DNA of 34,944 nucleotides from Lachnospiraceae bacterium (GTDB taxonomy: Bacteria; Bacillota; Clostridia; Lachnospirales; Lachnospiraceae), in contig JAILAF010000053.1 of NCBI GenBank assembly GCA_024681775.1, positions 1 to 34,944 of the forward strand. The letters are read 5' to 3'. Within the stretch, counting starts at the first letter, position 1, and each line of letters begins with the position of its first letter. Positions 14,628 through 33,960 of this stretch are shown here, one piece after another. The notes beneath the pieces were generated by a model. It saw only the letters and a list, made by a program, of their open reading frames with translations, made no database searches and had not been told where the DNA came from. The position numbers were made by a program, and so were the translations under genes.

Positions 14628-14629
14628 CC

Positions 14630-17267: not shown

Positions 17268-17280
17268 TTTCCGAAAAGGA

Positions 17281-17336
17281 CTTTATTGCGATAAAGAAAC
17301 CGTGCGATGGCAAAAAATTGCTAGCACGGTTTTTTT
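17281..17336 (+). terminator. Terminator of the sugar-sensor operon
   Basis: A small hairpin CTTTAT-TGCG-ATAAAG (17281-17296) is followed by the main stem AAACCGTGC (17297-17305) with GCACGGTTT (17324-17332) and a T-run. It separates the sensor operon from the transporter operon. Confidence 0.88.
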
Positions 17337-17368
17337 GTGAAAAAAAACGAAACAAGAAAGTGCTGTAT

Positions 17369-17398
17369 TTCGCAAACATCTTCTACCGAAGCTATGAT
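17369..17398 (+). promoter_or_regulatory. Candidate promoter of the ChvE/Mms transporter operon
   Basis: TTCGCA (17369-17374, four of six to consensus), 18-bp spacer, TATGAT (17393-17398). The weak -35 would suit activation by the AraC-type regulator. No clear repeated half-sites were recognised by eye in 17340-17369. Confidence 0.45.
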
Positions 17399-17414
17399 AC
17401 CATCGGTCTTGCAA

Positions 17415-17440
17415 GGGGCTGAGAGCCCCAAAACAGTTTT
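17415..17440 (+). promoter_or_regulatory. Two perfect inverted repeats in the chvE leader
   Basis: GGGGCT-GAG-AGCCCC (17415-17429) is joined directly to AAAAC-A-GTTTT (17430-17440). They lie just after the expected transcription start and 22 bases before the ATG. They could be a 5' stabilising stem, an operator, or a weak attenuator-like hairpin. Only the structure is seen. Confidence 0.5.
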
Positions 17441-17462
17441 TCACTATTGGAGGGAATAAAAT

Positions 17463-18536: not shown

Positions 18537-18561
18537 TTTCGGAAATAATGAACGACTCAGG

Positions 18562-18585
18562 GCAGGCGGGGCAAAACCCGCCTGC
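18562..18585 (+). promoter_or_regulatory. Intercistronic stem-loop between chvE and the ATPase gene
   Basis: Perfect 9-bp GC-rich stem, GCAGGCGGG (18562-18570) with CCCGCCTGC (18577-18585), loop GCAAAA. No T-run follows, so it is probably a 3' stabiliser or partial terminator for the binding-protein message rather than a full stop. Confidence 0.7.
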
Positions 18586-18615
18586 TTATGGGTGAAGCAA
18601 AGTGGAGGTGTGACC

Positions 18616-20154
18616 TTGGGCAAAATCCTGCTTGAAATGAAGAATATCACCAAGACATTTCCGGGCGTGAAAGCGCTTGACAATGTCAATCTGCAGGTGG
18701 AAGAGGGCGAGATCCATGCACTGGTAGGAGAGAACGGTGCCGGCAAGTCCACGCTGATGAACGTGCTCAGCGGCATCTACCCCTACGGAACCTACGAAGG
18801 AGACATCGTATATAACGGCGAAGTATGCGCCTTTCAGAAGATCACCGATTCCGAGAAAAAGGGCATCGTGATCATCCACCAAGAGCTGGCTCTGGTTCCC
18901 CAGATGTCCATCGGCGAGAATATGTTCCTGGGCAACGAGAGAGGGAAAAAAGGCGCCATAAATTGGAATGAGACGTACAGCGAAGCTGACAAGTACCTGA
19001 AGATGGTAGGCTTGTCGGAATCGTCGCGCGTGTTGATAAAGGATATCGGAACCGGCAAACAGCAGCTGGTGGAGATCGCGAAGGCGCTGGCCAAGAAGGC
19101 AAAGCTCCTGATCCTGGACGAGCCCACCTCATCTCTGAACGAGACGGACTCCAGAGCGCTGCTGGATCTGATGCTGGAGTTTAAGAAACAGGGCATGACC
19201 ATGATCATCATCAGCCACAAGCTCAATGAGGTAGTCTATGTGGCGGACAAGATCACGGTCATCCGTGACGGCTCCACCGTGGAGACCCTGGACTGCCATA
19301 CCATGGAGATCGACGAGGACCGCATCATCAAGGGCATGGTAGGTCGTGAGATCACGGACCGTTTCCCGAAGCGGAGCGGCGTGGAGATCGGCAATGTGAA
19401 TATGGAGGTTCGGAACTGGACCGTGTTCCATCCCCTGTACGCGGAGCGCAAGGTGGTGGATGATGTCAGCATGACCGTCCGAAAGGGCGAGGTTGTGGGC
19501 ATCTACGGACTCATGGGCGCCGGCCGGACCGAGCTGGCCATGAGTATCTTCGGCAAGTCTTACGGCTCCGACATTACCGGACAGCTCCTGATCGCCGGAA
19601 AAGAAGTCCATCTGAAGAACCCCAAAGAGGCCATCCATGCAAAGCTGGCCTATGTGACCGAGGACCGGAAGGGCAACGGACTGGTACTATCCAATCCCAT
19701 CCGCGTCAATACATCCCTGGCCAATATGGCAGGTGTCAGCAACCGGGGCGTCATTGACAGGGACAAGGAGTACCAGGTGGCAGTGGAGTACAAGGACAAG
19801 CTGCGGACCAAGACGCCTTCCGTTGAGCAGAATGTGGGCAACCTCTCCGGAGGAAACCAGCAGAAGGTGCTCCTGGCAAAATGGATGTTCACGGATCCGG
19901 ATATCCTGATCCTGGACGAGCCCACCCGAGGCATCGATGTGGGTGCAAAATACGAGATCTACTGCATCATCAACGACCTGGTAAAAGCCGGGAAATCCGT
20001 TGTGATGATCTCTTCCGAGCTTCCCGAGGTCATCGGTATGAGCGACAGGATCTACATCATGAATGAAGGCCGCTTTGTGGGCGAGATGAAAGCCTCCGAA
20101 GCGACACAGGAAAATATCATGGCTTGCATCTTGCAGTCGGGAAGGGGCGAATAA
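18616..20154 (+). CDS. mmsA: Sugar ABC transporter double ATPase (MmsA/GguA type)
   Basis: 512-aa cytoplasmic ATPase with two ABC domains, as in all CUT2-class sugar importers. First half: Walker [10 protein letters not shown] (38-46), signature region [14 protein letters not shown], Walker [12 protein letters not shown]. Second half: a degenerate P-loop (GLMGAGRTE), canonical LSGGNQQK and [14 protein letters not shown], also typical of this class, where one site is weak. I take TTG at 18616 as the start because GGAGG (18604-18608) is 7 nt upstream and the family N-terminus ([18 protein letters not shown]) follows. An in-frame GTG at 18592 has no ribosome site and lies before it. It powers import through the two permeases that follow 2 bases later. 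Confidence 0.95.
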
Positions 20155-20156
20155 GT

Positions 20157-21329
20157 ATGAATCTGAAAGTATTGGATGTCTTAAAGAAATATACGATGGT
20201 ATTTGCCCTGGTAGCGGTCATGATCTTCTTTTTCTTCCAGACCGACGGCAAGATCCTGTATTCCCAGAACATCAATAACCTGATCTCCCAGAACGCGTAC
20301 GTCTTCGTGCTGGCGGCAGGTATGCTCCTTTGTATCCTCACCGGTGGTAACATCGACCTGGCCGTGGGTTCCGTGGTCTGCTTCGTCGGCGGTATCGGCG
20401 CAGTGATCATGGACCGGAGCATCAACATCTGGGTAGCCGTGGCCATCATGCTGGTGGGCGGCCTGCTGGTGGGTCTGTGGCAGGGCTTCTGGATCGCCTA
20501 TGTGAAGGTTCCTCCCTTTATCGCCACACTGGCAGGTATGTACGCCTTCCGCGGATTTTCCAACGTGGTCATGAAAGGTCTGACCGTGGGTGTCAGAGAC
20601 GAGACCTTTCTGAAGGTCTTCGGCGGCGGCTCCGATTGCTACATCCCCGACCTCTTCGGGGGCGGCAATTTCAACATTACCTGTATGGTGGTGGGTGCCA
20701 TCTGTGTGGTTGTCTATCTGGTCCTCACCCTGCGAAAGCGGGCGGCTGCCAAGTCCAAGGGGATCGAGGTGGAGAGCCTCACCTCCATGATCGTCAAGAT
20801 GGTCGTCATTTCGGCCGTGCTTTTGTGGGTATTCTACAAGTTGGCTACCAACGGCGGTAAGGGTATCCCTACCAGCCTGATCTGGATCGGTCTGGTGCTG
20901 ATCGCTTACGAGTATGTCACCACCAAGACCACCGTGGGTCGTTACCTGTACGCCGTAGGCGGCAATGAAAAGGCCACCCGGCTCTCCGGTATCGATTCGA
21001 GAAAGGTTTATCTCTTTGCTTATCTGAACATGGGTCTCATGGCCGGTCTCGGCGGTATTCTTACCATCGCCAGAGCTCAGAACGCAGCGCCCACCTTCGG
21101 CGTCGGTTACGAGATGGATGCCATCGCAGCCTGCTTTATCGGCGGAGCCTCCGCATACGGCGGTGAGGGCAACATCTTCGGCGTCATCATCGGTGCGGTC
21201 CTGATGGGTGTCATCAACCAGGGCATGAGCATCATGGGTATCTCCGCCAACTATCAGAGTGTGGTCAAGGGCATCGTGGTGCTCCTCGCCATCGTCTTTG
21301 ATGTGGTGTCGAACAAGAAGAAAAAGTAA
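20157..21329 (+). CDS. mmsB: Sugar ABC transporter permease 1 (MmsB/GguB type)
   Basis: 390-aa membrane protein of the CUT2 permease family. It has about ten hydrophobic helices and the conserved blocks GGNIDLAVGSVV, VPPFIATLAGMYAFRG, TTVGRYLYAVGGNEKATRLSGI and EMDAIAACFIGGASAYGG. I place the start at ATG 20157 (2 bases after the ATPase stop, preceded by AAGGGG); an in-frame ATG at 20124 would overlap the ATPase gene and add an unrelated 11-residue tail. It forms the membrane pore, probably together with its paralogue encoded next. It differs from permease 2 by a Gly-rich periplasmic loop (LFGGGNFN). Family assignment is secure. Confidence 0.94.
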   Translation: MNLKVLDVLKKYTMVFALVAVMIFFFFQTDGKILYSQNINNLISQNAYVFVLAAGMLLCILTGGNIDLAVGSVVCFVGGIGAVIMDRSINIWVAVAIMLVGGLLVGLWQGFWIAYVKVPPFIATLAGMYAFRGFSNVVMKGLTVGVRDETFLKVFGGGSDCYIPDLFGGGNFNITCMVVGAICVVVYLVLTLRKRAAAKSKGIEVESLTSMIVKMVVISAVLLWVFYKLATNGGKGIPTSLIWIGLVLIAYEYVTTKTTVGRYLYAVGGNEKATRLSGIDSRKVYLFAYLNMGLMAGLGGILTIARAQNAAPTFGVGYEMDAIAACFIGGASAYGGEGNIFGVIIGAVLMGVINQGMSIMGISANYQSVVKGIVVLLAIVFDVVSNKKKK

Positions 21330-21340
21330 GGAGAAAAGCT

Positions 21341-22510
21341 ATGGCAAAATATTTGGATGTACTGAAAAAGAATGCAATGCTGATCATCCTTGTGCTGGTA
21401 TTTCTCTTCTTCACGGCACAGACGGGCGGAGCGATGCTGTCTCCCCTGAACTTCAACGCATTGATCATTCAGAACGCATATGTGTTCATTCTGGCCACCG
21501 GTATGCTGATGTGTATGCTCACCGGCGGTAACATCGACCTGTCCTGTGGTTCCTTTGTCTGCTTCATGGGTGCTGTCGGCGGCGTCCTTATGGTGGTGAA
21601 GGAGAGAGGCACCGGCGTGTCCATCCTGCTGATGCTCCTCATCGGTATCCTGTACGGATGTGTGCTGGGCTTCCTGGTGGCCTATGTGAATATTCCACCC
21701 TGGATCGCCACCCTGGCAGGCTATCTGGCCTTCCGCGGATGGGGAACCGCCATCCTGCTGAACAACAGCACCACCGGCAGTATCGCTCCCATCCCTGCAG
21801 GCTTTTTGAAGATCTTCTCCGGCAAGATCTTTGAGACGCCCATCAATCAGTTCAATGTGGTGTGCTTTGTGGTGGGGATCATCGCCAGTATCGTTGTGGT
21901 GGCGCTGAATATCTTCACCAGAGCTTCCAAGCTCAAGAAGGGCTACGAAGCGGATTCGCTGGTATCCATGATCGTCAAATCGGTCCTGTCCGTCTTTGTG
22001 ATCATGCTCTTTGCCTACAAGCTGGCAAAGGCAGGCGGAATCCCCACTGCCCTGGTGTGGGTGGTCGCCATCGTCCTGCTCTACAGCTTCATCACCTCCA
22101 AGACCACCCTGGGCAGATACTTCTACACCATCGGCGGCAACAAGGAGGCAACCCGCCTCTCCGGCGTGGACACCCGACTGATCATGTTCTTCGCTTATCT
22201 GAACATGGCAGTGCTGACGGTCATCACCTCCTTTGTGGTGCTGGCCAGAACCCAGGCGGCCAATTCCACCGCAGGAACCAACTACGAGATGGATGCCATC
22301 GCAGCCTGTGTGGTGGGCGGCGTTTCCGCATACGGCGGATCCGGCTCCGTCTTCGGCATGGTGGTGGGTGCAACCCTGATCGGTGTCATCAACCTGGGCA
22401 TGCAGCTCATGAACGTGGATGCCGACTGGCAGAAGATCGTAAAGGGTATCGTCCTGCTGGCAGCCGTGGTCTTTGACATTCTGGCTGCGAAGAAGAACCA
22501 GAGCAAGTAA
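21341..22510 (+). CDS. Sugar ABC transporter permease 2, paralogue of permease 1
   Basis: 389-aa CUT2-type permease, clearly a tandem duplicate of the preceding gene. It shares VLKK near the start, NAYVF(V/I)LA.GML, GGNIDL, FIATLAG/WIATLAG, GRY.Y..GGN and EMDAIAAC.GG.SAYGG. It lies 11 bases after the first permease with GGAGAA as ribosome site, and a strong terminator follows. Canonical systems of this class use one permease gene as a homodimer. Two full-length copies suggest a heterodimeric pore, or two pores with different sugar preference using the same ATPase. Both keep the conserved motifs, so neither looks like a decaying copy. Confidence 0.93.
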   Translation: MAKYLDVLKKNAMLIILVLVFLFFTAQTGGAMLSPLNFNALIIQNAYVFILATGMLMCMLTGGNIDLSCGSFVCFMGAVGGVLMVVKERGTGVSILLMLLIGILYGCVLGFLVAYVNIPPWIATLAGYLAFRGWGTAILLNNSTTGSIAPIPAGFLKIFSGKIFETPINQFNVVCFVVGIIASIVVVALNIFTRASKLKKGYEADSLVSMIVKSVLSVFVIMLFAYKLAKAGGIPTALVWVVAIVLLYSFITSKTTLGRYFYTIGGNKEATRLSGVDTRLIMFFAYLNMAVLTVITSFVVLARTQAANSTAGTNYEMDAIAACVVGGVSAYGGSGSVFGMVVGATLIGVINLGMQLMNVDADWQKIVKGIVLLAAVVFDILAAKKNQSK

Positions 22511-22637: not shown

Positions 22638-24647
22638 ATGGTATATGCATCGGTTGGAATTCTGGCTCTGCTCCTGAATGCGATATTAAATTGGAAAACC
22701 ATGTCGGAAGCGAAATTCCGGTCAGATCCCGAGGATAAAAAACAGCGGGTGATCAACCGTTACGGCGGGTTCCTGATTGCGGCAAACTGCTTTTTTATCA
22801 GTGATATCCTCTGGGGCATTCTGGATCAGCACCATACGATACCCGGGATTTTATTCTTCCTTTATTCCGCAGCGATACTCTATTTTGTCTTCATGCTTCT
22901 GACCATGCTGACATGGTTCCGCTATGTGGTGTCCTATCTGGATAAGGATAATTTTGCGTCCCGTCTCCTCCTGGTCTCCGTATGGATGGTTTTTGTCATC
23001 GGGTTTATCGAGCTGATGCTCAACTACTTTCATCCCTTCATTTTCTCCTTTGATGCAGAACAAAATTATATACCCGAAGCCGGCAGAAATTATGCCTTCC
23101 TTCTGCAGGTGATCTTCTATTTTCTGGCAGCCGGTCAAATGCTCGGAATATCCTTCCGGGCGGTATATCGGCTGCGGATCCGTTATCTGGCCGTGGCACT
23201 GACCTGCCTTTCTCTGGGAACTTTCCTGGGCCTGCAGGTTTTCGACTCCTCCCTCCCTTTTTACTCCGTGGGACTGATGGTGGGCATCGCTGTGGTCCAC
23301 ACCTTTGTGGAAGCCGGTGAGAAGAAAGAGAAAGAGGTTCGCGATCATATCGCCTCCATCATGGCGGAGGATTACGAGGTCATCTATTTCATCGATCTGG
23401 AGACGGGGGATTACCTGGAATTCTCCAAGAGTGACCAGTACCGATCCATGGACGTCCCTTCTGCCGGCAAGGATTTCTTCAAAGAGACCATGGAGAACAT
23501 CAAAACCTATGTGTATCCCGATGATATCCCCTATGCAAATTCCTTTTATTCCAAGGAGGCCATGCTGGAGAACCTGGAGGGCAGACGTTCCTTCTCGTAC
23601 AAGTATCGCATTCTGGTGAAGGGAGAGCCCAGATATTTCCTCTTTACGGTCATGCGGGACAGTGCAAGCCAGTACCTTGTCTTTTATGAGAAGGATATCC
23701 AGGACGAGCTTGTGGCGGAGAAGAAGCAGCGGGAGACCCAGAAAAAGACGGTCACCTTCGGTCAGATCGCTGAGAGCCTGGCGTCCAACTACGATGAGAT
23801 CTATTATGTGAATGTGACGGATTCCTCCTATGCCAGCTACGAAGTCAACAACATCTACGGGCAGCTGGAGGTCAGCAACTCCGGCGCGGATTTCTTCGGG
23901 GATTCCTATAGCAACATTCCCCAGATCATTCACAAGCGGGATCAGGAGAAATTGATGGAGTTCCTGAACAGGGACTTCCTGCTTTCAGCGTTGGAAGGCA
24001 GAAAGAGAACCGGTATCGATTATCGGATCACCATGTCCGGAATGACGCATTATCTGCGCATGACCGTCCGCAGGACCAGCGACGGAAGCCACTTTATCAT
24101 CGGTGTGGAGAACATCGATGACGAGATCAAGCGGGAAAAGCAGCATATGAGAGCCCTTCAGTCGGAGAAGGAACTGGCCAGAAGGGATGAGCTCACCGGC
24201 ATCAAGAACAAGAATGCTTACATGGAGCTGGTGGAGTCGATCCAGAACAATATAAACAATGGCATGGACTACCTGCCCTTTGGTCTGGTGGTCTGTGATG
24301 CCAACAATCTGAAGACGATCAACGACACCCAGGGCCACGCGGCGGGAGATGAATACATCAAGGCCTCTGCCCGCTTGCTCTGCGATATCTTTGTCCACAG
24401 CCCTGTCTTCCGTGTGGGAGGAGATGAGTTTGTCGTCTTCCTACGGGGCAGCGATTATACGGAGAAAGAGAACCTGATGAAGAAGCTCCGGGATCAGGTT
24501 CTGGAAAATAAAGAGACCGGATCCGGCCCCATCCTGGCTTCCGGAATGGCGGAGTATGTCCCCCGGATCGATAACTTTGTGACAGAGATCTTCGACCGGG
24601 CAGATAAGGAGATGTATGAGAACAAGCAGGATCTGAAAAGTGACTGA
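22638..24647 (+). CDS. Seven-helix, double-PAS diguanylate cyclase
   Basis: 669-aa membrane enzyme predicted to make c-di-GMP. Seven hydrophobic helices fill residues 1-225; two PAS-like modules follow (about 240-355 and 380-497, each with an EIYY/EVIYF strand and a closing strand such as FIIGVENID); then GGDEF about 505-665. The catalytic motif is intact (GGDEF at 594-598, with DANNLKTINDTQGHAAGDEY upstream). The I-site RxxD expected five residues before it is absent (FVHS), so product inhibition is not predicted. The ATG at 22638 has GGGAGG 14 nt upstream, longer than usual, so the exact start is less certain. It sits between a terminator and its own, separating the sugar operon from the phosphorelay operon. 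Its ligand is unknown. Confidence 0.92.
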   Translation: MVYASVGILALLLNAILNWKTMSEAKFRSDPEDKKQRVINRYGGFLIAANCFFISDILWGILDQHHTIPGILFFLYSAAILYFVFMLLTMLTWFRYVVSYLDKDNFASRLLLVSVWMVFVIGFIELMLNYFHPFIFSFDAEQNYIPEAGRNYAFLLQVIFYFLAAGQMLGISFRAVYRLRIRYLAVALTCLSLGTFLGLQVFDSSLPFYSVGLMVGIAVVHTFVEAGEKKEKEVRDHIASIMAEDYEVIYFIDLETGDYLEFSKSDQYRSMDVPSAGKDFFKETMENIKTYVYPDDIPYANSFYSKEAMLENLEGRRSFSYKYRILVKGEPRYFLFTVMRDSASQYLVFYEKDIQDELVAEKKQRETQKKTVTFGQIAESLASNYDEIYYVNVTDSSYASYEVNNIYGQLEVSNSGADFFGDSYSNIPQIIHKRDQEKLMEFLNRDFLLSALEGRKRTGIDYRITMSGMTHYLRMTVRRTSDGSHFIIGVENIDDEIKREKQHMRALQSEKELARRDELTGIKNKNAYMELVESIQNNINNGMDYLPFGLVVCDANNLKTINDTQGHAAGDEYIKASARLLCDIFVHSPVFRVGGDEFVVFLRGSDYTEKENLMKKLRDQVLENKETGSGPILASGMAEYVPRIDNFVTEIFDRADKEMYENKQDLKSD

Positions 24648-24688
24648 CGATACATGGTATGAGAGAAGCACAGGACAGGTAAAAAGGG

Positions 24689-24726
24689 GAGGTCCTCCGC
24701 CATACGGGCGGGGGATCTCTTTTTTT
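24689..24726 (+). terminator. Terminator after the diguanylate cyclase gene
   Basis: A 13-bp stem with two G-T pairs, GAGGTCCTCCGCC (24689-24701) with GGCGGGGGATCTC (24707-24719), then seven T. It isolates the phosphorelay operon from upstream transcription. The 120 bases that follow hold a possible -10 (TACAAT, 24813-24818) but no convincing -35. Confidence 0.9.
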
Positions 24727-24850
24727 GTTTCTTTGACCATTCGAACGCTCAAAACAACCGCTTGGCCGATCCTGCTTGCGCCTCGATCCTCTTTTTCGAT
24801 ATCCTACTTTTGTACAATTATACCCAAAAGAGAAAAGGGAGATAACTCTG

Positions 24851-26545
24851 ATGACGGACAATCTGATCATCATCGTAGACGATGACGCGGACAGTCTTGC
24901 AAATGCCAAAAGCCTGCTGGAGGGCCAGTACACAAAGGTCAGGGCCATTCGCAGTGGTGCGGATCTTCTGAAACTGACGGCAAAGCATGCACCGGACATG
25001 ATCCTTCTGGATATCCTGATGCCGGAGATGGATGGGTTTGAGGCCTACCGGCTTTTACGGGAGCAGGAAAAAAAGCTGGGACGCAATCCTGCGCCGGTGA
25101 TCTTTCTCACCGGTGAAAACGATACCATTTCGGAGCAGCACGGACTCACGATCGGGGCGTCCGATTTTATCCGCAAGCCCTTTAACCGGGAAATCCTGCT
25201 CCGGCGCATCCAGAACGCGATCCAGAGTGCAAAGACCATCGAAAACCTCACCGAGGAGGCCACGGTAGACAAAATGACGGGGCTTCTCAACAAGGCGGGG
25301 GCCACCGGGAAGCTTCCGACGCTTTGCGCGGAGGAAGAGGGGACCCTGACGATGCTGGATCTGGACAATTTCAAGCTCGTCAACGATCTCTACGGACACG
25401 AGATGGGAGACAACGTTCTGAAGGCCTTCGCCCGGATCCTGCGGGAGGCTTCCCGTGAGGGAGACTGCCTGTGCCGGACCGGCGGGGATGAGTTTCTGGC
25501 GTTCTTTCGCTGCATCCTTCGGAAAAAAGAGGCAGATGCCCTGGCAAAGGAACTGAACATGCGGATGGTGCAGGCCTGCAGGGATCTGATGGGAGCGGAG
25601 TTTGACATTCCCATAGGGGTATCTCTGGGGATGGCGCGTGTGCCGGAATGCGGACGCTCCTATGACGAGCTTACCCGGTTTGCGGACGCGGCGCTCTATC
25701 AGGTCAAACAGGGGAGCAAGCACAGTGCGGCCATCTACTCTCCCGATCCCCAGGCGGGAAAGGAAGATGATCTGGAGAGCGAAATGTCACGCCTGACCCA
25801 GATCCTGAAAGAACGGAACCGTCCCGGGACAGCCATGTGGCCCGGACAGGAGGGGATCACCTGGATCTACCGGTTTTTGAGCCGGTATGCCAACCGGGCA
25901 ATGAAGCTCCTCTTTTCCGTGACGGTGGCGGAAGCAGATTCCAAAGAGAGCTTCGCGGAAGCGGTGAAGGGCTTTTCGGAGGTCCTGGCAGATACGCTCC
26001 GGGAGAGTGATGCGATCCTGCAGAGCCGGCCGGGCAGATTCTTTGTCCTGCTCCCGGATCTGGGAGAGGAGGATGCACAGCAGATCGTGCGCCGTATCCT
26101 GGATGGCTGGGCGGAGAGCGGGACACACGCAGGCGTGAAGGTGGAGTATATCCTGCAGCCGCAGGAGCTTTCCTCGCCGCAGGCCGGAGATGTCTCCCAG
26201 ATCGCGGTGTATGACGGAGGAAGGATCGCCCTCCTGCATCCGAAGGATTTCATCCGGATCTATACCGAGAACCGGAGGCTGTGTGTCATGGCGACCTCCG
26301 GAAGATACGAATCCCGTATCACACTTCGGGAATTCGAGGATCTTCTGGATCCGGGCATCTTTGTACGGATCAGCCGGTTTGAGATCGTGAATCTCCGAAA
26401 GATCAGCAGTTTTGACCTGAGCATGGCGGGCACCATTCGGATCATTTTTTCCAATGGGGAGGAAACCTGGGTAGCCCGCAGATATGTCCGGGAAATCCAT
26501 TCCAAACTGGATCAGCTGAGCAAAGGAGGTGAGGCGCATGAATAA
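24851..26545 (+). CDS. Response regulator: receiver, GGDEF, degenerate GGDEF, LytTR DNA-binding
   Basis: 564-aa regulator with four parts. Receiver 4-125: acidic pocket Asp10/Asp11, phospho-Asp54 (LLDILMPEMDG), Lys109. GGDEF about 135-297: intact catalytic motif 211-215 and I-site RxxD (REGD, 202-205) exactly five residues before it. Second GGDEF-like unit about 310-435: catalytic motif replaced by RPGRF (393-397), but RxxD kept (RESD, 384-387) again five residues before. LytTR about 450-553: FVRISRFEIVNLRKI and a VARRYVREI end. The start at 24851 follows AAGGGAG; an in-frame ATG at 24776 lacks a ribosome site and adds unrelated sequence. I infer a phospho-controlled c-di-GMP synthase that also binds DNA. 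Domain calls are firm except the second GGDEF, inferred from pattern. Confidence 0.9.
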   Translation: MTDNLIIIVDDDADSLANAKSLLEGQYTKVRAIRSGADLLKLTAKHAPDMILLDILMPEMDGFEAYRLLREQEKKLGRNPAPVIFLTGENDTISEQHGLTIGASDFIRKPFNREILLRRIQNAIQSAKTIENLTEEATVDKMTGLLNKAGATGKLPTLCAEEEGTLTMLDLDNFKLVNDLYGHEMGDNVLKAFARILREASREGDCLCRTGGDEFLAFFRCILRKKEADALAKELNMRMVQACRDLMGAEFDIPIGVSLGMARVPECGRSYDELTRFADAALYQVKQGSKHSAAIYSPDPQAGKEDDLESEMSRLTQILKERNRPGTAMWPGQEGITWIYRFLSRYANRAMKLLFSVTVAEADSKESFAEAVKGFSEVLADTLRESDAILQSRPGRFFVLLPDLGEEDAQQIVRRILDGWAESGTHAGVKVEYILQPQELSSPQAGDVSQIAVYDGGRIALLHPKDFIRIYTENRRLCVMATSGRYESRITLREFEDLLDPGIFVRISRFEIVNLRKISSFDLSMAGTIRIIFSNGEETWVARRYVREIHSKLDQLSKGGEAHE

Positions 26546-26960
26546 ACTGGCAAAAAAAGGACTCCTCCTGGGCGGGATCGGGTTTGTGATCGGGCTCCTG
26601 ATCGGTCTGGGTGTATGGCTGGCCAGCTCCGGAGGACATCCGGTCCTGTCCGAGATTTCCCCCTTTGAACTGATCGTCGGCGGGATCTATGGCATGCTGG
26701 CCATGGGGGGATCCGTCTCCTATGATGTGGAGCACTGGAGCATTCTGCGCTGTACCCTCACGCATCTGGTTCCCACATTTCTGGGCTTCTATGTGATGGG
26801 ATTTGTCCATGGATGGCTGATCCCCGGAAGCGCCCTGTTCTGGATCATGACGGTCTGCTGGCTGGTGGCTTATCTGATCATCTGGCTGTCTCAGTATCTG
26901 ATCTGGCGCAAAAAGATCAAGGCCCTCAATGAGGAGCTGAAGAAAATGAAAAAAAGGTAA
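26538..26960 (+). CDS. DUF3021-family membrane protein, LytTR partner
   Basis: 140-aa membrane protein with four hydrophobic helices (about 8-29, 43-62, 75-97 and 100-125) and a basic, helical C-terminal tail (RKKIKALNEELKKMKKR) facing the cytoplasm. The layout and the SYDVEHWSILRCTLTHL segment fit DUF3021. In Firmicutes such genes usually follow a LytTR regulator gene; in comparable LytTR systems the membrane partner restrains the regulator. Start ATG 26538 is chosen because AAAGGAGG precedes it by 8 nt; it overlaps the regulator gene by 8 bases, so both are made together. I infer that it anchors or inhibits the LytTR output at the membrane. Direct interaction is not shown by the sequence. 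Confidence 0.84.
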   Translation: MNKLAKKGLLLGGIGFVIGLLIGLGVWLASSGGHPVLSEISPFELIVGGIYGMLAMGGSVSYDVEHWSILRCTLTHLVPTFLGFYVMGFVHGWLIPGSALFWIMTVCWLVAYLIIWLSQYLIWRKKIKALNEELKKMKKR

Positions 26961-26987
26961 CGCAGTGGAAAGAAAGAGGAGACCGAT

Positions 26988-27596
26988 ATGACGGTAGAGG
27001 AAAATCTGGCGGTACTCTCGGAACTTGGCCTGGATACCCAGTCGGGGATCACCTATACCGGAGGGCCGGAAAAATATATCGCAGCGATCCAGCGGTTTTT
27101 CAAAAGTTTTGAAAAGAACAGGGGGAAGGTGCTCTCGTTTTTTGAGGCGAAGGACTATGAGAGCCTGATGATCACGGTGCACGCTCTGAAGAGCAACGCC
27201 GGGATGATCGGAGCGGATCCCTTAAGCAAGGCGTTTGAAGCGCTGGAGATGGCGGCTAAGGGAAATGACATCGCTTATATCGAGGCAAATACGGAACAGA
27301 CGCTGGAGGATTACGCGCGTCTGGTGGGAGCACTGGAGCCGGTGGGAGCCGGTGAGACCGTAAAGCCGGCGGATGAACTGACCGCATCCCAGGCCCGGGA
27401 AGTGGCAGATGCCCTGCTGGCGGCGCTGGATGATTTTGATGATGAGCAGGCCGGAAAACTTGCGGAGAAGCTTTCCGGATACCCGTTCCGGATGACGCAG
27501 GCTGGGATGCTCCGGCAGGTCCGGGACCGGATCGCGGATTTTCTCTATGATGAGGCAGCGGAACTGGTACGGCAGATCGCGGAAACCATTGAGTAA
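26988..27596 (+). CDS. Stand-alone histidine phosphotransfer (Hpt) protein
   Basis: 202-aa soluble protein. An Hpt four-helix domain occupies about 20-115 with phospho-accepting His65 in the canonical HALKSNAGMIGA motif. A second helical segment (about 130-202, EVADALLAALDDFDDEQAGKLAEKL) follows; similar tails occur after Hpt domains in clostridial hybrid kinases. There is no membrane segment and no kinase domain. It sits 27 bases after the DUF3021 gene and 17 before the first hybrid kinase, with AGAGGAG as ribosome site. Since neither kinase carries its own Hpt, this protein is the natural shuttle from their receiver domains to the receiver of the GGDEF-LytTR regulator. Confidence 0.93.
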   Translation: MTVEENLAVLSELGLDTQSGITYTGGPEKYIAAIQRFFKSFEKNRGKVLSFFEAKDYESLMITVHALKSNAGMIGADPLSKAFEALEMAAKGNDIAYIEANTEQTLEDYARLVGALEPVGAGETVKPADELTASQAREVADALLAALDDFDDEQAGKLAEKLSGYPFRMTQAGMLRQVRDRIADFLYDEAAELVRQIAETIE

Positions 27597-27613
27597 GGAA
27601 AGCTGGTGCGGAA

Positions 27614-30139
27614 TTGAAAAAGATCAGACTCGCATTGTCCGTGATACTGATCCTGGTATTCGGATATATCTTCATCGGGGAACTGGTTTTCCCGGCAGAT
27701 ACGCCTCTCAACGGGCGGATCTGTGATACGCTTCCCGGAGACCGGTGGGTGCAGGTCCTTGACGACGGCAGCCGGGTCCCCTTTGCAGTGCCCGGTCGGA
27801 CGGAGGGGGACATTGTTCTGGAAACCACGATCCCGGAGGAGTTTGACCGGGACTACAGCGTGCTTTGTCTGCGGGGCATGGATCTTTGCGTTTATGTGGG
27901 AGACGAGCTCCGGGCACAGTATAAGACCACGGACTACGCCCTGCTTGGGGACCGGTCCGCGGAGTGCTATGTCTTTGCCTCCGTCTATCCGGAGGATGCG
28001 GGGAAGACCCTCCGGGTCTGTTATGAATACAATTCCGGCATGGTCTATGAGGTCTACATCGGAACCCGGATCGGGATCCTGGCAGAGCTGTTCCACCAAT
28101 ACGGGCTGGAGCTGTTTGCGGGACTGTCCATCCTGCTCCTGGGCGTCATCTGCCTCATCGCCTCCGTCACCTACAAATGCATCCACAAAACCTATCTGGA
28201 GCTGGAGCACCTGTCCATCGGTGTCATCATCGGGGCCTGCTGGGTGCTGTCCAATTCCATCTTCCGGCAGCTCTATACCAGAAATATCTCCGTTATGTCG
28301 GATATCCCGTTCCTCATGGTGATGATCATGCCGCTGCCCTTTTTTGTCTTTATCGACTCCCTGCAGGAGGGCAGATACCGGAAGGCCAATCTGGCGGTCA
28401 GTATTCTGGAGATCGCCGATTTTCTGGTCTGCATTGCCCTGTTCGTGTCGGGAAAGGTCCCCCTGGTCCGGAGCTTTCCGATTTATGCCCTGTGTGCGCT
28501 CATCGCCATCATCGTGATGTTTGCCACCATCATCCTGGACGCCCGGAAAGGCCTGCTTGGAAGCTACCGCGTGGTGGCCGTGGGTTTTGCCCTTTTGGCC
28601 GTCGCAGCCGTCATCCAGATCCTGGTGTATCAATTCGCACACAACGGCGTTTTCTCCGGACTGTTCATGGCCTTCGGACTGTTCGGATTCATGATCTGCG
28701 CCATCATTCATACCATCAAGCAGCTCATTGCCATCCGCCTGCATGCCAATGAGCTGATGCACAAAAGTCAGGCGAAGGACGACTTTCTGGCGAACATGTC
28801 CCATGAGATCCGAACGCCCTTAAACGGGATCCTGGGGATGGATGAGATGATCCTCCGGGACACCCGGGAAAACAGGGTGCGGCAGTATGCCCTGGAGATC
28901 CGCAGCGCGGGGAACACCTTGCTTTCCATCATCAATGACATCCTGGATCTGTCCAAGATCGAGTCCGGGAGCTTTGAGATCATCCCGGTGGAATACGACC
29001 TGGCGTCGGTCCTGAATGATGTGCTGAACATGACCCGGCACCGCGCACAGAAAAAAGATCTGACCTATGATCTGAAGGTGTCGGAGAAGATCCCCTCCAG
29101 GCTCTTCGGTGACGAGATCCGGATCCGGCAGATCCTCTTAAACCTCATCAACAATGCCATCAAATATACGGAAAAAGGCGGTGTCACCATCGAGATCACC
29201 TCGGAGCCGGCCATGATGGGAAACGATGCGAATCTCATCTTTCGGGTGTCGGATACGGGCATCGGGATCCGGGACGAGGACCGGGAAAAGCTGTTTAAGA
29301 GCTTTTCCAGACTGGAGGAGCGGAGAAACCGCAGCATCGAGGGAACCGGGCTGGGTCTGCATATCACCATGCTCCTTCTCCAGATGATGGAGGGGCAGAT
29401 CGAAGTCGAGAGCGAGTATGGGAAGGGCAGCACCTTTACGGTCACTGTCCCCCAGCGGGTGGTGAGCGCGCAGCCTCTGGGAGATTTTTCCAGAGCGGTG
29501 CGCAGTTATCTGAACCACATCGAAACAGATGAAGTGTGTCTCTATGCGCCGGAAGCACATGTGCTGGTGGTGGATGACAACGAGATGAATCTGGAGGTCA
29601 TGGAAGGACTTCTGCGGGATACTGCGGTCAAAACAGACCTGGTGAACTCCGGAGCGGCCTGCATCGAAGCGGTAGCGCAGACAAAATACGACTGCATCCT
29701 GCTGGACCAGATGATGCCGGAGCTGAGCGGAGAGGAGACGCTGAAGGAACTGAAAGCAAGAGGCCTCCTTGGCGGAACGCCCGTCATCGCACTGACGGCG
29801 GACGCCATCATCGGTGCCAGGGAAAACTATCTGGCAAAGGGCTTTACAGACTATCTGAGCAAGCCGGTCAAATATGACAAGCTCGAGCAGATCCTGCGGG
29901 AGTATATTCCGAAAGAAAAGCAGCAGATCCGGCAGTCGGAGGAGCAGCTCCCGGTCCTGGTGATCTGGGGAACGGATCCGGAACTGCTGCGGGCGGAAAA
30001 AGAGCGGCTGGACGGTATTTATAAATGCGTCTGTATCACGGGAAGCGCCGCTGCCGAAAAGTATCTGGAAAAGCACAGCCCGGTGGCTGTAATGCATGTA
30101 ACGGCGGGGCCTGCGCAGGCGCCGGGATCGGAGAGTTGA
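27614..30139 (+). CDS. Hybrid histidine kinase 1, seven-helix (7TMR-DISM-like) sensor
   Basis: 841-aa membrane kinase. TM1 about 5-22; an extracytoplasmic beta-rich domain about 25-160 (jelly-roll-like, several Tyr/Cys); a block of about seven helices 163-376; HisKA with His397 (ANMSHEIRTPLNG); ATPase domain with N-box (LINNAIKYTEKGG), DTGIGI and GTGLGL; receiver about 649-765 with phospho-Asp698 (LLDQMMPELSG). After it, residues 779-829 resemble the first half of another receiver (strand, helix, strand, helix, strand) without acidic residues. The start is TTG at 27614, because the basic signal-like N-terminus (KKIRLALSV) needs it; GGTG precedes it closely. The layout resembles 7TMR-DISM sensors. 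Ligand unknown. Confidence 0.92.
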   Translation: MKKIRLALSVILILVFGYIFIGELVFPADTPLNGRICDTLPGDRWVQVLDDGSRVPFAVPGRTEGDIVLETTIPEEFDRDYSVLCLRGMDLCVYVGDELRAQYKTTDYALLGDRSAECYVFASVYPEDAGKTLRVCYEYNSGMVYEVYIGTRIGILAELFHQYGLELFAGLSILLLGVICLIASVTYKCIHKTYLELEHLSIGVIIGACWVLSNSIFRQLYTRNISVMSDIPFLMVMIMPLPFFVFIDSLQEGRYRKANLAVSILEIADFLVCIALFVSGKVPLVRSFPIYALCALIAIIVMFATIILDARKGLLGSYRVVAVGFALLAVAAVIQILVYQFAHNGVFSGLFMAFGLFGFMICAIIHTIKQLIAIRLHANELMHKSQAKDDFLANMSHEIRTPLNGILGMDEMILRDTRENRVRQYALEIRSAGNTLLSIINDILDLSKIESGSFEIIPVEYDLASVLNDVLNMTRHRAQKKDLTYDLKVSEKIPSRLFGDEIRIRQILLNLINNAIKYTEKGGVTIEITSEPAMMGNDANLIFRVSDTGIGIRDEDREKLFKSFSRLEERRNRSIEGTGLGLHITMLLLQMMEGQIEVESEYGKGSTFTVTVPQRVVSAQPLGDFSRAVRSYLNHIETDEVCLYAPEAHVLVVDDNEMNLEVMEGLLRDTAVKTDLVNSGAACIEAVAQTKYDCILLDQMMPELSGEETLKELKARGLLGGTPVIALTADAIIGARENYLAKGFTDYLSKPVKYDKLEQILREYIPKEKQQIRQSEEQLPVLVIWGTDPELLRAEKERLDGIYKCVCITGSAAAEKYLEKHSPVAVMHVTAGPAQAPGSES

Positions 30140-30142
30140 CGG

Positions 30143-32554
30143 ATGGAGGAACTGGAAACAGGAAAAAAAGAAGAGGCCAAAAAGGGATCCGGTGGCAGGA
30201 AAAACAGCATGCTTCTGCCTCTTTTGCTGGTTTTTCTCTTCGTGGCCGTGATGGTCATCTACGCCTCGCGGATGATGTACCGGGCAGCCGTCTCCAACGC
30301 GGCGGCGGTGATGGAGGACCGGATGCTGGGCGTCTCCTCCATGATCGAAAACCACATCGGAACGGCGGAGAATGTGCTCCATGTGACGGCGGACTCCGTG
30401 TATCACATGCTCATCAGCGGTTCCACCCCCGCGCGGATCCATGAATTTCTGGTGGAGGAGACCGACAACATTTCTCATCATTTTAATCCCAACTTCAACG
30501 GCCTCTACGGATATATCATGACCAAGTATCTGGACGGGCTGAACTGGGAACCGCCGGAAGATTATGACCCTCGGACCCGGGACTGGTACATCAGCGCAAA
30601 AGAGGCCGACGGAGAGGTGGTGATCGTCCCGCCTTATGTGGATGCCCAGACCGGGGAGATCATCATATCCGTGTGCCGGATGCTGCCGGACCGGCAGAAT
30701 GTCCTGTCCCTGGACGTGTTCCTGAACGATATTCAGGAGATGGTCCGGGAACTGAACATCGGCGGCAAGGGATACGGTTTCGTGGTGGATGATAACGGAC
30801 TGTTCATTGCGCACCGGGAGGAAAGTCTGCGGGGGACGATGATGACGGATACCCCGGAGGGAGCCGCCTTTCTCCAGATCATCCGGGAGAAGGGACCTTC
30901 CACCTATACCTGCACCTGCTACGGGGAGAAGAGCACCGTGTATGTGACCCGTGTGCTGGATCTGTGGTATGTGGTGATGGTAGTCAGCAACCGGGAGCTC
31001 TATGCGGATGTTCGGGGGCAGCTGAGCCTGAACGTCTTTATCAGTACCCTCATCTTCCTGGTGATCGCGGTCTTCTCCTACAACATTTACCGGAATGAAA
31101 GACGCTATACCAGAAAAATGCAGGAGATGCGTCTGGAGGAGCAGAAAGCATCCTACGAGCGGCGGATGCTGGAACTGGAAAAGGATGCGGCCAATGCCTC
31201 CAACAAGGCCAAGAGCGATTTCCTCGCCCGCATGTCCCATGAGATCCGGACCCCCATGAATGCCATCATCGGCATGGACGAGATGATCCTGCGGGAACCG
31301 GTCAGCCAGCGGGTGCGAAAATATGCCATGGACATTCGAAGCGCCGGCAAGACCCTCCTGTCCCTCATCAATGATATCCTCGATCTGTCCAAGATCGAGT
31401 CCGGGAAGATGGAACTGGTTCCCGTGGAGTACGGCTTTGCCTCCGTCTTAAACGATGTGGTGAACATGACCAGGGAAAGAGCGCGGGATAAGGGACTGGA
31501 ATATCATCTGCAGGTATCCCCGGAGATCCCGTCGCTTCTGTGCGGAGATGAGATCCGGGTCCGGCAGGTGATGCTGAACCTCATCGGAAATGCCATCAAG
31601 TATACCCAGAAAGGGAGCGTCACCGTGGATGTTTCCTTTGAATCCGGATCCGGCATGCTGCAGATCATCGTAGCCGACACGGGCATCGGGATCCGGGAGG
31701 AGGACCGGGCCAAGCTCTTCGGTGCTTTCCAGAGGCTGGAGGAGGACCGGAACAGAAAAGTAGAGGGAACCGGTCTGGGGCTGAACATCACCCTGCAGCT
31801 CCTCAAGATGATGGAGGGCAGCATCGATGTGGCCAGCGTATATGGGGAGGGAACGACCTTCACTGCCCGGATGAAGCAGCGGGTGATCGATCCGGCTCCC
31901 ATCGGAGATTTTGCTGTCCAACTGGCGGATCTGCAGGATCAGCAGGAGAACTACAGTGCAACCTTTACCGCACCGAAGGCCCGGCTGCTGGTGGTGGATG
32001 ACAACGAGATGAACCTGGAGGTCATTTCCTCGCTTCTGGAGGAGACGAAGATTCAGGTGACCACAGCAGAGTCCGGCCGGGAATGCCTCGCTCTTATGCA
32101 GGAGGAGCGCTTTGATCTGGTCCTGCTGGATCAGATGATGCCCGGCATGTCGGGAGTGGAGACCCTGGAAATCCTGCGCAAGCAGCATCTGGCGGATGAT
32201 ACACCCGTGGTGGCCCTGACGGCAGATGCCATCGTGGGAGCCCGGGAGAACTACCTGCGGGAGGGTTTTGCGGATTATCTGAGTAAACCCGTCATGTACC
32301 GGGCACTGGAAGAAGTCCTGCGCAGGCTCTTAAATCCCGCCCTTGTGGAGGAGATTTCAAGCAGCAAGGAGACTTCCCGCGATGCAAAGGCCCCGGGCAG
32401 TACAGGGGAAGGAGAGACACCGGTGGTCATCGGTATCAGTCCCTCCTCCGAAAAGCTGCGGGAGCTTAAAACCCTTCTGGGAAGCGGATATAAAGGCGTT
32501 TTCGTGAAGGATATGGAGAGCGCCGCCAGATATGTGGAAAAGAACAGAAGATAA
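30143..32554 (+). CDS. Hybrid histidine kinase 2, dCache_1 sensor with amino-acid motif
   Basis: 803-aa membrane kinase. TM1 about 23-41; dCache_1 domain about 45-290; TM2 about 296-315; coiled coil about 318-350; HisKA with His366 (RMSHEIRTPMNA); ATPase domain with N-box IGNAIKYTQKG, DTGIGI and GTGLGL; receiver about 614-730 with phospho-Asp663. The Cache domain carries Tyr141, Arg146, Trp148, Tyr149 and Asp191, the spacing of the amino-acid-binding signature of dCache_1 domains, so an amino acid or amine ligand is predicted. A tail at 759-803 is again receiver-like and stops after the second helix. The cytoplasmic half is closely similar to kinase 1. It starts 3 bases after kinase 1. Confidence 0.93.
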   Translation: MEELETGKKEEAKKGSGGRKNSMLLPLLLVFLFVAVMVIYASRMMYRAAVSNAAAVMEDRMLGVSSMIENHIGTAENVLHVTADSVYHMLISGSTPARIHEFLVEETDNISHHFNPNFNGLYGYIMTKYLDGLNWEPPEDYDPRTRDWYISAKEADGEVVIVPPYVDAQTGEIIISVCRMLPDRQNVLSLDVFLNDIQEMVRELNIGGKGYGFVVDDNGLFIAHREESLRGTMMTDTPEGAAFLQIIREKGPSTYTCTCYGEKSTVYVTRVLDLWYVVMVVSNRELYADVRGQLSLNVFISTLIFLVIAVFSYNIYRNERRYTRKMQEMRLEEQKASYERRMLELEKDAANASNKAKSDFLARMSHEIRTPMNAIIGMDEMILREPVSQRVRKYAMDIRSAGKTLLSLINDILDLSKIESGKMELVPVEYGFASVLNDVVNMTRERARDKGLEYHLQVSPEIPSLLCGDEIRVRQVMLNLIGNAIKYTQKGSVTVDVSFESGSGMLQIIVADTGIGIREEDRAKLFGAFQRLEEDRNRKVEGTGLGLNITLQLLKMMEGSIDVASVYGEGTTFTARMKQRVIDPAPIGDFAVQLADLQDQQENYSATFTAPKARLLVVDDNEMNLEVISSLLEETKIQVTTAESGRECLALMQEERFDLVLLDQMMPGMSGVETLEILRKQHLADDTPVVALTADAIVGARENYLREGFADYLSKPVMYRALEEVLRRLLNPALVEEISSSKETSRDAKAPGSTGEGETPVVIGISPSSEKLRELKTLLGSGYKGVFVKDMESAARYVEKNRR

Positions 32555-32575
32555 CGGGATAGAAGGAGAGCGCAT

Positions 32576-33892
32576 ATGAAAAAGAAGATTTTAAGCCTTC
32601 TGCTGGCAGCCGCGATGGCTCTGGCACTGGCTGCCTGCGGATCCCGGCCGGCCGCGCAGACGCCGGATCCCGGTAATACTACTGCAGCCACAGAGGAACA
32701 GACCGGTCCCGGGACGGATGCAGGGGCGGATCCCGCCGGGGCAGAGAGCGCTGCGGTGACAGAGCCGGATGGTACGGACTACCGCATCGGGATCGTGACC
32801 GGGTCCATGGCCCAGTCCGAGGATGACAGACGGGGCGCGGAAGCCTTTCGGGAAAAATATGGCGAGGAACAGGTCACCCTGGCCATCTATCCGGACAATT
32901 TCGAAGAGGAATATGACACTACGGTGCAGACCATCGTAAACCTGGCAGAGGATCCGAAGATGAAGGCCATCATCGTAAACCAGGCGGTACCCGGAACCGC
33001 GGAGGCCTTCCGGCAGATCCGGCAGATCCGCCCGGATATCATCTGCATCGCCGGGGAGGCGCACGAGGACATTCCGGAGATCAGCGAAGTGGCGGATCTG
33101 GTAGTGCTCAATGACTTTGTGGCCAGAGGGTATCTCATTGTACGCTCCGCGCATGAACTGGGGTGTGATACCTTTGTCCACATCTCCTTTGAGCGCCATC
33201 TGTCCTACGATACCATCGCCAGAGAAGTGGCCATCATGAAGGCAGCCTGTGAGGAATTCGGCATGACCTTTGCCATGGAGGAAGCGCCGGATCCCATCAC
33301 GGAGGTGGGAGTTCCGGGAGCCCAGGCCTACATCACGGAGCATGTGCCCGGGTGGCTGGAGACCTACGGGACGCAGACGGCGTTCTTCTGCACCAACGAT
33401 GCCCATACGGAACCGCTGATCCGGGAGCTGTTAAAGCTCGGGGGATTTTTTATCGAAGCGGACCTTCCCTCTCCCATGATGGGATACCCCGGGGCACTGG
33501 ATCTGGATCTGACCGAGGAATCGGGAGATTTCGAGAAGATCCTGCGGACCGTGGAGCATGCGGTCTGTGAAAAGGGCGGAGCCGGCCGGTTCGGAACCTG
33601 GGCTTATTCCTACAGTTATACCGTCTCGGCCGGACTGGCAGAGCATGTGCGGAACGTGATCCTGGGAGAGGCGAGTCTTACGGACAACGGTGACATTGCC
33701 AAAGCCTTTCAGGTATTCTCCCCCGGCGCAGACTGGAACGGCAGCAAATACATCGATACGGCGACCGGCAAGACGGTGAGCAATACGATCCTCATCTATC
33801 AGGACACCTATATCATGGGAGACCCCGGATATTATATGGGAAGCACCAAGGTGGCGGTGCCGGAGAAGTACTTTATCCTTGGCGGGCCCTGA
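32576..33892 (+). CDS. DUF3798-type binding lipoprotein
   Basis: 438-aa exported lipoprotein. Signal peptide with lipobox LAAC (Cys21); a low-complexity Pro/Thr/Ala/Gly-rich linker about 22-62; then a periplasmic-binding-protein-like fold about 65-430 (YRIGIVTGSMAQSEDDRRGAE, MKAIIVNQAVPGT, CDTFVHISFERHLSY, FFCTNDAHTEPLI). This matches DUF3798, whose members are usually next to ABC transporter genes. Here no transporter gene is adjacent; the gene is the last of the phosphorelay operon, 21 bases after kinase 2, with AAGGAG before the ATG. I infer that it captures a ligand for one of the two kinases. It could still serve a transporter encoded elsewhere. The fold is fairly clear; the ligand is unknown. 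Confidence 0.86.
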   Translation: MKKKILSLLLAAAMALALAACGSRPAAQTPDPGNTTAATEEQTGPGTDAGADPAGAESAAVTEPDGTDYRIGIVTGSMAQSEDDRRGAEAFREKYGEEQVTLAIYPDNFEEEYDTTVQTIVNLAEDPKMKAIIVNQAVPGTAEAFRQIRQIRPDIICIAGEAHEDIPEISEVADLVVLNDFVARGYLIVRSAHELGCDTFVHISFERHLSYDTIAREVAIMKAACEEFGMTFAMEEAPDPITEVGVPGAQAYITEHVPGWLETYGTQTAFFCTNDAHTEPLIRELLKLGGFFIEADLPSPMMGYPGALDLDLTEESGDFEKILRTVEHAVCEKGGAGRFGTWAYSYSYTVSAGLAEHVRNVILGEASLTDNGDIAKAFQVFSPGADWNGSKYIDTATGKTVSNTILIYQDTYIMGDPGYYMGSTKVAVPEKYFILGGP

Positions 33893-33911: not shown

Positions 33912-33960
33912 AAAAAAGGAGTCAGAGAACCGGCACCATTGGTTTCCCTGGCTCCTTTTA
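33912..33960 (+). terminator. Terminator of the phosphorelay operon
   Basis: Long hairpin: AAAAGGAG (33914-33921) with CTCCTTTT (33952-33959), continued inward by TCAG/CTGG and GAACC/GGTTTC pairings. A-run and T-run flank it, so it may act in both directions. Confidence 0.82.

Follow-up and report, generated by a model that had tools for sequence, protein, structure and literature searches.

In hybrid kinases in general, phosphate passes from the kinase's own histidine to its own receiver. In the Lux relay of Vibrio the binding protein LuxP partners one kinase, LuxQ, and the output is a sigma-54 activator, and the output of the HptB pathway of Pseudomonas is a partner switch. The CqsS-LuxU-LuxO cascade is described in PMC3310172. 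Passages of PMC5085249 describe PA1611, ErcS' or SagS of P. aeruginosa, encoded at loci other than hptB, as phosphorylating HptB, which in turn phosphorylates HsbR, in a pathway tied to the diguanylate cyclase HsbD. LytTR regulatory systems (LRS) consist of a LytTR gene and an inhibitory membrane protein, which in some cases is DUF3021; the sections of PMC6193735 that deal with them set them apart from two-component systems, report no kinase domains in the five S. mutans membrane proteins, place the direct repeats some 10 bp ahead of the -35 box with an edge-to-edge spacing of mostly 12 bp, and call the input signals of HdrRM and BrsRM unknown. Here we describe an operon in the window, the whole 34,944-nucleotide stretch analysed (contig JAILAF010000053.1 of a Lachnospiraceae bacterium), whose six genes encode two hybrid kinases, a free Hpt phosphotransfer protein, a regulator with receiver (REC), GGDEF and LytTR domains, a DUF3021 membrane protein and a DUF3798 lipoprotein. 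The operon probably belongs to a multi-sensor phosphorelay in which the sensors converge on a single free Hpt and a LytTR/DUF3021 pair is the output, supplemented here by a cyclic di-GMP (c-di-GMP) arm. Its parts, their phospho-acceptor residues, their recurrence, the regulator fusion and, in part of the relatives, the promoter repeats are established at the level of sequence.

Recurrence of the module around a free Hpt

One genome for each of 84,980 species was scanned with a ten-row Hpt alignment, and the best 80 of 146 relatives were kept. The record titles of 66 of these say Lachnospiraceae; the remainder name Eubacterium, Butyrivibrio, Oscillospiraceae, Ruminiclostridium, Clostridiaceae or Clostridia. 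The rumen or the ruminant gut is mentioned in a large share of the titles. Subtraction of the six query source contigs leaves 74 loci, which contain a hybrid kinase (67), a receiver partner (68), LytTR with DUF3021 (52), a kinase-1 sensor (51), a kinase-2 (Cache) sensor (43), DUF3798 (32) and a FIST protein (11), with all but FIST together in 22. For the 37 loci with at least 8 kb on both sides the corresponding counts are 37, 34, 28, 27, 27, 23 and 6, with 18 holding all but FIST. Some loci share a contig (L025/L093, L023/L056, L024/L090, L031/L040, L032/L039 and L010/L037/L085), L027 overlaps L129, and the pairs L046/L058 and L075/L088 each stem from a single metagenome-assembled genome. The commonest order is LytTR, DUF3021, double receiver, Hpt and kinase 1, then DUF3798 and kinase 2, so that in the usual form LytTR and DUF3021 are genes of their own beside a separate double-receiver protein of about 268 amino acids. 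Pfam finds one receiver in this protein and the doubling was recognised by eye, the N-terminal half matching REC weakly (probability 9, E 0.004). LytTR adjoins DUF3021 on the same strand in all 54 loci that have both as separate genes; counting the window, Hpt adjoins kinase 1 on the same strand in 47 of 52 loci and the double receiver adjoins Hpt in 65 of 70.

Control loci lack this association. The 16 DUF3798 loci linked to ATP-binding cassette (ABC) transporters (292 kb) contain no LytTR, DUF3021, double receiver, kinase-1 sensor or free Hpt, and 20 loci with fused-Hpt kinases or GGDEF proteins (286 kb, two overlapping) contain no LytTR, DUF3021 or double receiver, with one kinase-1 sensor and two free Hpt proteins among them. 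The initial annotation had taken the six families for one system, a view that it would have abandoned if their homologues rarely occurred together. The families do cluster repeatedly with the free Hpt; the exact set of six genes, in which the LytTR protein contains GGDEF, was found only in this genome and one congener. The general system differs from the one first described in that LytTR, DUF3021 and the double receiver are separate, kinase number is variable and most loci have no GGDEF.

The genome itself (G000) carries a second complete six-gene copy on another contig (C47), the Hpt of which is 71% identical, and both copies have orthologues in similar surroundings in the congener G305: one is flanked by a transporter-like gene (judged by eye to be MATE), the other by a homologue of the diguanylate cyclase encoded at 22638-24647. 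A chance neighbourhood or an assembly error is ruled out by the second copy, the congener copies and the further loci. The subfamily is patchy, and among 391 genomes of the class, matches at E 1e-45 occur only in this genome and in G180, of the same family.

The kinases at times include an extra one, and a FIST protein may also be present in the locus; the one FIST protein scanned consists of FIST_N and FIST_C. In 11 of 11 loci (L043, L049, L051, L061, L065, L066, L071, L076, L088, L095 and L099) the FIST-type protein directly adjoins a kinase of about 504 amino acids, a pair that we presume to resemble the NosP/NahK nitric-oxide sensors feeding HptB in Pseudomonas. In G180 (L023/L056) the relay has no DUF3798 nearby and is followed by a 350-amino acid protein, an ABC ATPase and a 500-amino acid lipoprotein-like protein, as if another binding protein had taken the place of DUF3798.

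The layout of the operon (24851-33892) agrees with its first description as six forward genes with gaps of at most 27 bases or overlaps, flanked by terminators (Table 1). The junctions are -8, 27, 17, 3 and 21 bases, the 8-base overlap being that between the regulator gene and the DUF3021 gene, whose ATG start follows AGGAGG, and both flanks hold terminator-like hairpins. The assignment of His and Asp sites to kinases that lack an Hpt, with a separate Hpt gene in the same operon, was likewise upheld by Pfam and by inspection of the residues.

Table 1. Coordinates of the operon genes and flanking elements in the window.
Feature	Position	Strand	Details
Terminator-like hairpin 5' of operon	24682-24726	+	hairpin scan, 20 pairs
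Degenerate LytTR-type direct repeat ACCATTCGA-N12-ACCGCTTGG, 21 bp apart	24736-24765	+	spacing and position like C47 copy
Regulator, REC-GGDEF-MID-LytTR	24851-26545	+	564 aa; Pfam over curated cut-offs; D54, GGDEF, RxxD I-site
DUF3021 membrane protein, possible LytTR inhibitor	26538-26960	+	140 aa; PF11457 E 8e-19
Free Hpt phosphotransfer protein	26988-27596	+	202 aa; Pfam Hpt; H65
Hybrid kinase 1, membrane sensor-HisKA-HATPase-REC-half-receiver tail	27614-30139	+	841 aa; TTG start
Hybrid kinase 2, dCache sensor-HisKA-HATPase-REC-tail	30143-32554	+	803 aa; dCache_1
DUF3798 lipoprotein, solute-binding-protein-like	32576-33892	+	PF12683 E 2e-113, 378.6 bits; lipobox LAAC
Terminator-like hairpin 3' of operon	~33912-33960	+	folding, -22.3 kcal/mol; not in hairpin-scan list

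Two neighbouring regions of the window were also read. The membrane diguanylate cyclase at 22638-24647 lies just 5' of the operon; its homologue beside the congener copy (L032, 9377-10204) is cut by the contig end, another homologue occurs near a similar module in L044, and the cyclase may be part of the same pathway. Farther upstream, open reading frames at 12056-22510 read as a sugar-uptake island with binding proteins, a sensor kinase, an AraC-type regulator, an ABC ATPase and two permeases.

Kinase tails and the fused regulator

The phospho-acceptors are H397 and D698 in kinase 1 and H366 and D663 in kinase 2, and no Hpt domain was found in either kinase with Pfam at curated cut-offs. The sensor of kinase 1 matches 7TMR-DISM below the cut-off (14.6 of 29 bits). 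The model of the free Hpt (predicted local distance difference test, pLDDT, 95.5) shows the Hpt bundle with H65 and a conserved C-terminal four-helix part (residues 133-198); its first Foldseek match is P. aeruginosa HptB (7c1i) at a weak E of 0.12, with none at E 0.001 or better. H65 is present in 89 of 89 Hpt rows (88 distinct) and the receiver Asp in 72 of 72 double-receiver rows (70 distinct), and the kinase acceptors His and Asp are invariant in 56 of 56 rows for kinase 1 and 47 of 47 for kinase 2; these counts cover rows long enough for alignment, without deduplication and with short or contig-cut proteins omitted.

In most kinases of free-Hpt loci the receiver is followed by a tail, which the profile comparison matches with the first half of a receiver (probability 96.6, E 5e-10). 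After deduplication (162 distinct kinases), the tail is found in 126 of the 134 kinases of free-Hpt loci, where three end in Hpt and five in neither, and in none of 28 kinases elsewhere, 20 of which end in Hpt and eight in neither, a contrast that is partly built in rather than an independent test because the profile was made from these loci and the comparison loci were chosen via Hpt-, sensor- and GGDEF-type matches. One tailless kinase (L109) is cut by the contig end. At L081, L093 and L094, kinases of the form HisKA-HATPase-REC-Hpt-REC stand beside a double receiver and a free Hpt, a mixed fused and free type.

The regulator contains D54 and K109, and hence a terminal receiver with a phosphorylatable Asp, and, as sequence features of a diguanylate cyclase, the GGDEF signature at residue 211 and the RxxD I-site (REGD) upstream of it. 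Between GGDEF and LytTR, residues ~300-445 form a further domain (MID) that the initial annotation did not list. MID is perhaps a degenerate GGDEF that has lost its signature, as suggested by a weak profile match (probability 44, E 2e-4) and the order of its predicted elements, on which this interpretation rests because the regulator model is poor (pLDDT 67.8). The top Foldseek matches of this overall poor model are PleD, WspR and DgcR.

In the family sample, 91 of 299 genomes contain MID-related matches (E 1e-5), part of which were read individually. Among L119-L132, ten loci have a REC-GGDEF-MID protein, adjoined in nine by a kinase with fused Hpt (in L128 about 0.8 kb lies between them). 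None of these ten proteins carries LytTR, and those of L119, L120, L129 and L132 carry a second receiver. In the four loci chosen for a MID protein of about 600 amino acids, no LytTR was found; the proteins of L119 and L120 have the second receiver at their end, and no match to MID was obtained in L121 or L122. The REC-GGDEF protein ends in LytTR in the copy of the window, in that of C47 and in those of G305. A search for the N-terminal half of the double receiver found it in G320, G319 and G112 but in neither of the genomes with this fusion, G000 and G305; as these are 92% and 89% complete, respectively, it may have been missed there. The 80 Hpt loci include six with a separate REC-GGDEF protein and two, in the congener, with the fusion. 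On the simplest reading of these sequences, an Hpt feeds such REC-GGDEF proteins, one of which became joined, in this genus, to the LytTR switch and replaced the double receiver. At L130 (C122, 1684-5891) the genome also encodes a fused-Hpt kinase with a sensor like that of kinase 2, next to a REC-GGDEF-MID protein; these genes are possible sources of cross-talk or of the fusion. Three LytTR genes score over the cut-off in its 2.9 Mb, two of them in the copies of this operon, and there are two further LytTR-like genes and one PilZ gene.

Promoter repeats, proposed route and alternatives

Two copies of ACCGAATARAC, 21 bp apart and with at most four mismatches in 22 positions, occur in 25 of 61 LytTR upstream regions compared with 0 of 1220 shuffles, the motif having been derived from the same regions (three duplicates were dropped from 64, and regions in which LytTR is not the first gene were kept). 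In 12 host genomes, mostly picked for having repeats, a limit of two mismatches gives 19 sites compared with one for the reversed pattern, and in 11 of the 12 one site lies 5' of a LytTR gene. In G336 (AB2028) the sole site stands ahead of a small gene and a peptidase-C39 ABC exporter. Four extra sites occur in G337, before the double receiver-Hpt unit, a third-kinase unit, an open reading frame of at least 2596 amino acids with surface-type repeat domains, and a gene judged by eye to be of secreted type; genes of this type, likewise by eye, follow the one extra site of G332 and one of the two in G338, the other of which precedes an unassigned gene. The large secreted- or surface-type proteins after the extra sites of G337, G338 and G332 (L010 2-7789, L150, L136 and L145) may be targets of the switch; four of the proteins near extra sites have no Pfam match over the cut-off.

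The repeats of the C47 copy (ACCGTTCGG and ACCGTTCAG) lie 9 bp before TTGCCC-18-TATGAT, an arrangement equalled by 3 of 500 shuffles, and those of its G305 orthologue, 20 bp apart, lie 9 bp before TTGCGT-18-TATTAT (1 of 500 shuffles). In the window the repeats lie 10 bp before a possible -35 box TTGCGC (24776), followed after 18 bp by a -10 box TATCCT (24800); each promoter box given here is the best candidate from a small scan. ACCGTTC-N14-ACCGTTC has one perfect site in the genome, at the C47 operon itself, and with one mismatch gives 13 sites compared with 10 for the reversed pattern in four congeneric genomes (five compared with three in G000), counts so close that extra targets in this genome or its congeners stand at chance level.

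A putative complete pathway from ligand to DNA and c-di-GMP within one operon, as first proposed from these genes, would run as follows. The DUF3798 lipoprotein would bind a solute and act on kinase 2 through its Cache sensor; a second cue would be sensed by kinase 1. Each kinase has the residues to transfer phosphate internally, from His to receiver. The association of the genes and the way in which their domains complement one another suggest that both receivers then pass phosphate to H65 of the shared Hpt, which would substitute for the Hpt domain missing from the kinases. The Hpt would phosphorylate D54 of the regulator or, in most relatives, the double-receiver protein instead. Once activated, the regulator would use LytTR to bind the direct repeats in the promoter of its own operon, with DUF3021 acting in opposition, and would make c-di-GMP with its GGDEF domain.

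Several observations weigh against this route, besides the incompleteness of the two genomes and the shared origin of profile, motif and tested sets noted above. The repeats of the window taken alone are not above chance (410 of 500 shuffles are as good). No GGDEF occurs within 9 kb in 72 of the 80 Hpt loci, and the genome has one PilZ protein as a possible c-di-GMP reader, PilZ being the reader type searched. Tailless kinases with their own Hpt occur in free-Hpt loci, ending in it in L026, L105 and L110 and carrying it before a last receiver in L081, L093 and L094. Cross-talk is possible because other Hpt-bearing kinases and a REC-GGDEF-MID protein are encoded in the same genome. The receiver partner is missing from 6 of the 80 loci, some of them contig-cut; L044, otherwise near the arrangement of the window, is not cut and has neither receiver partner within 9 kb, which the fusion and replacement described above do not explain. 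No LytTR+DUF3021 pair is in view in 22 of 74 loci, or in 9 of the 37 with at least 8 kb on both sides.

The missing pair in those 22 loci also favors an alternative in which two systems are merely co-located, a phosphorelay and an ordinary LytTR/DUF3021 pair governed by DUF3021 alone, so that no phosphate reaches LytTR and the double receiver of the usual form has other targets. The description of S. mutans LytTR/membrane-inhibitor pairs as distinct from two-component systems, in the sections of PMC6193735 cited above, fits this arrangement, as do L025/L093 and L081, where the order differs and another kinase intervenes. It is nevertheless rather unlikely, given that the regulator of the window, its paralogue and those of the congener all unite REC and LytTR in a single protein, that the double receiver was not found in the two genomes with this fusion, and that in G337 the repeats precede LytTR, the double receiver-Hpt unit and a kinase unit alike.

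The DUF3798 lipoprotein is likely the partner of kinase 2. It resembles a solute-binding protein both by its Pfam match over the cut-off and by a relative of known structure (3qi7, E 6e-26), which was deposited as a putative transcriptional regulator; PF12683 appears in a paper on solute-binding proteins (PMC9602780). In the family sample 21 of 299 genomes have DUF3798, 19 of them with a score over the cut-off; in the genus, 4 of 31 have it. Among 18 other family loci with DUF3798, 16 have a sugar-type ABC ATPase immediately adjacent or, in L011, L019 and L020, about 2 kb away, which would suit an orphan solute-binding protein feeding an ABC transporter encoded elsewhere, a role compatible with the relay; the remaining two (G052 and G112) stand beside a kinase-2 homologue with Hpt in the same locus. 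We consider the orphan role improbable for the protein described here, as DUF3798 and the kinase-2 homologue are same-strand neighbours in 34 of 34 loci that contain the two, the window among them, and 40 of 41 relay-locus DUF3798 proteins (a tally in which one contig appears twice) group in a single clade with support 0.98, separate from the ABC-linked proteins, the exception being a second DUF3798 gene of L106 that lies away from the relay genes. DUF3798 alone was rejected as a marker of the system on account of these 16 loci, and the free Hpt is the better marker.

That the regulator mainly sets c-di-GMP, with LytTR a relic or dimerisation part and DNA binding minor, would agree with the intact GGDEF and I-site and with the recurrence in the family of REC-GGDEF-MID proteins whose ends, where read, show no LytTR outside G000 and G305, but is very improbable in view of the good Pfam scores of LytTR in both operon copies (81.7 and 71.3 bits) and of the repeats and ordered promoter 5' of the C47 copy and its orthologue.

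Comparison with described systems

Each of the parts is known, namely hub-Hpt relays (Lux, HptB), LytTR/DUF3021 pairs and REC-GGDEF proteins. Among the literature matches listed, in a search mostly confined to sources outside subscription journals, the combination of these families is not described. We tentatively propose that it could constitute an undescribed signalling class, in which variable sensor kinases, including binding-protein- and FIST-partnered ones, act through a dedicated Hpt on a LytTR/DUF3021 switch and a half-receiver tail replaces the Hpt domain in most kinases. In one genus the receiver, diguanylate cyclase and LytTR would be fused, linking a second messenger to direct transcription control, and some relatives may switch large surface or secreted proteins. 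If true, this would provide a concrete input route for LytTR/DUF3021-type systems and a modular, repeatedly rearranged relay in ruminant-gut Lachnospiraceae. DUF3798 would gain a testable sensory role, and the regulator would be a naturally occurring protein that links phosphate and c-di-GMP to DNA binding.

The operon resembles Vibrio LuxPQ/CqsS-LuxU-LuxO in that several hybrid kinases would feed one free Hpt and one regulator and that a binding protein would partner one of the kinases. The kinases match the LuxQ model (286.9 and 276.2 of 1200 bits) and the Hpt matches the LuxU model (E 0.002, 18.4 of 140 bits) below the cut-offs, and the operon differs in its output, LytTR (plus GGDEF) with DUF3021, and in its binding protein, DUF3798. 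We know of no LytTR, DUF3021 or DUF3798 in the HptB pathway. PleD/WspR-type cyclases likewise join REC to GGDEF; the regulator differs from them in its extra domain after GGDEF and its DNA-binding LytTR domain. As in LRS, where the gene for a LytTR regulator is followed by one for a DUF3021 or DUF2154 membrane protein, a DUF3021 gene follows the regulator gene here. To our knowledge, the regulator of an LRS carries no receiver, in contrast to that of this operon, which has REC and GGDEF and is encoded with a phosphorelay that includes two kinases. The layout of the repeats and possible promoter boxes in the C47 and G305 copies is that reported for LRS in the relevant sections of PMC6193735, but the repeats of the window are not above chance. 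Because of the receiver and the kinases, the operon is best classed not as an LRS but as a free-Hpt phosphorelay coupled to an LRS-like switch.

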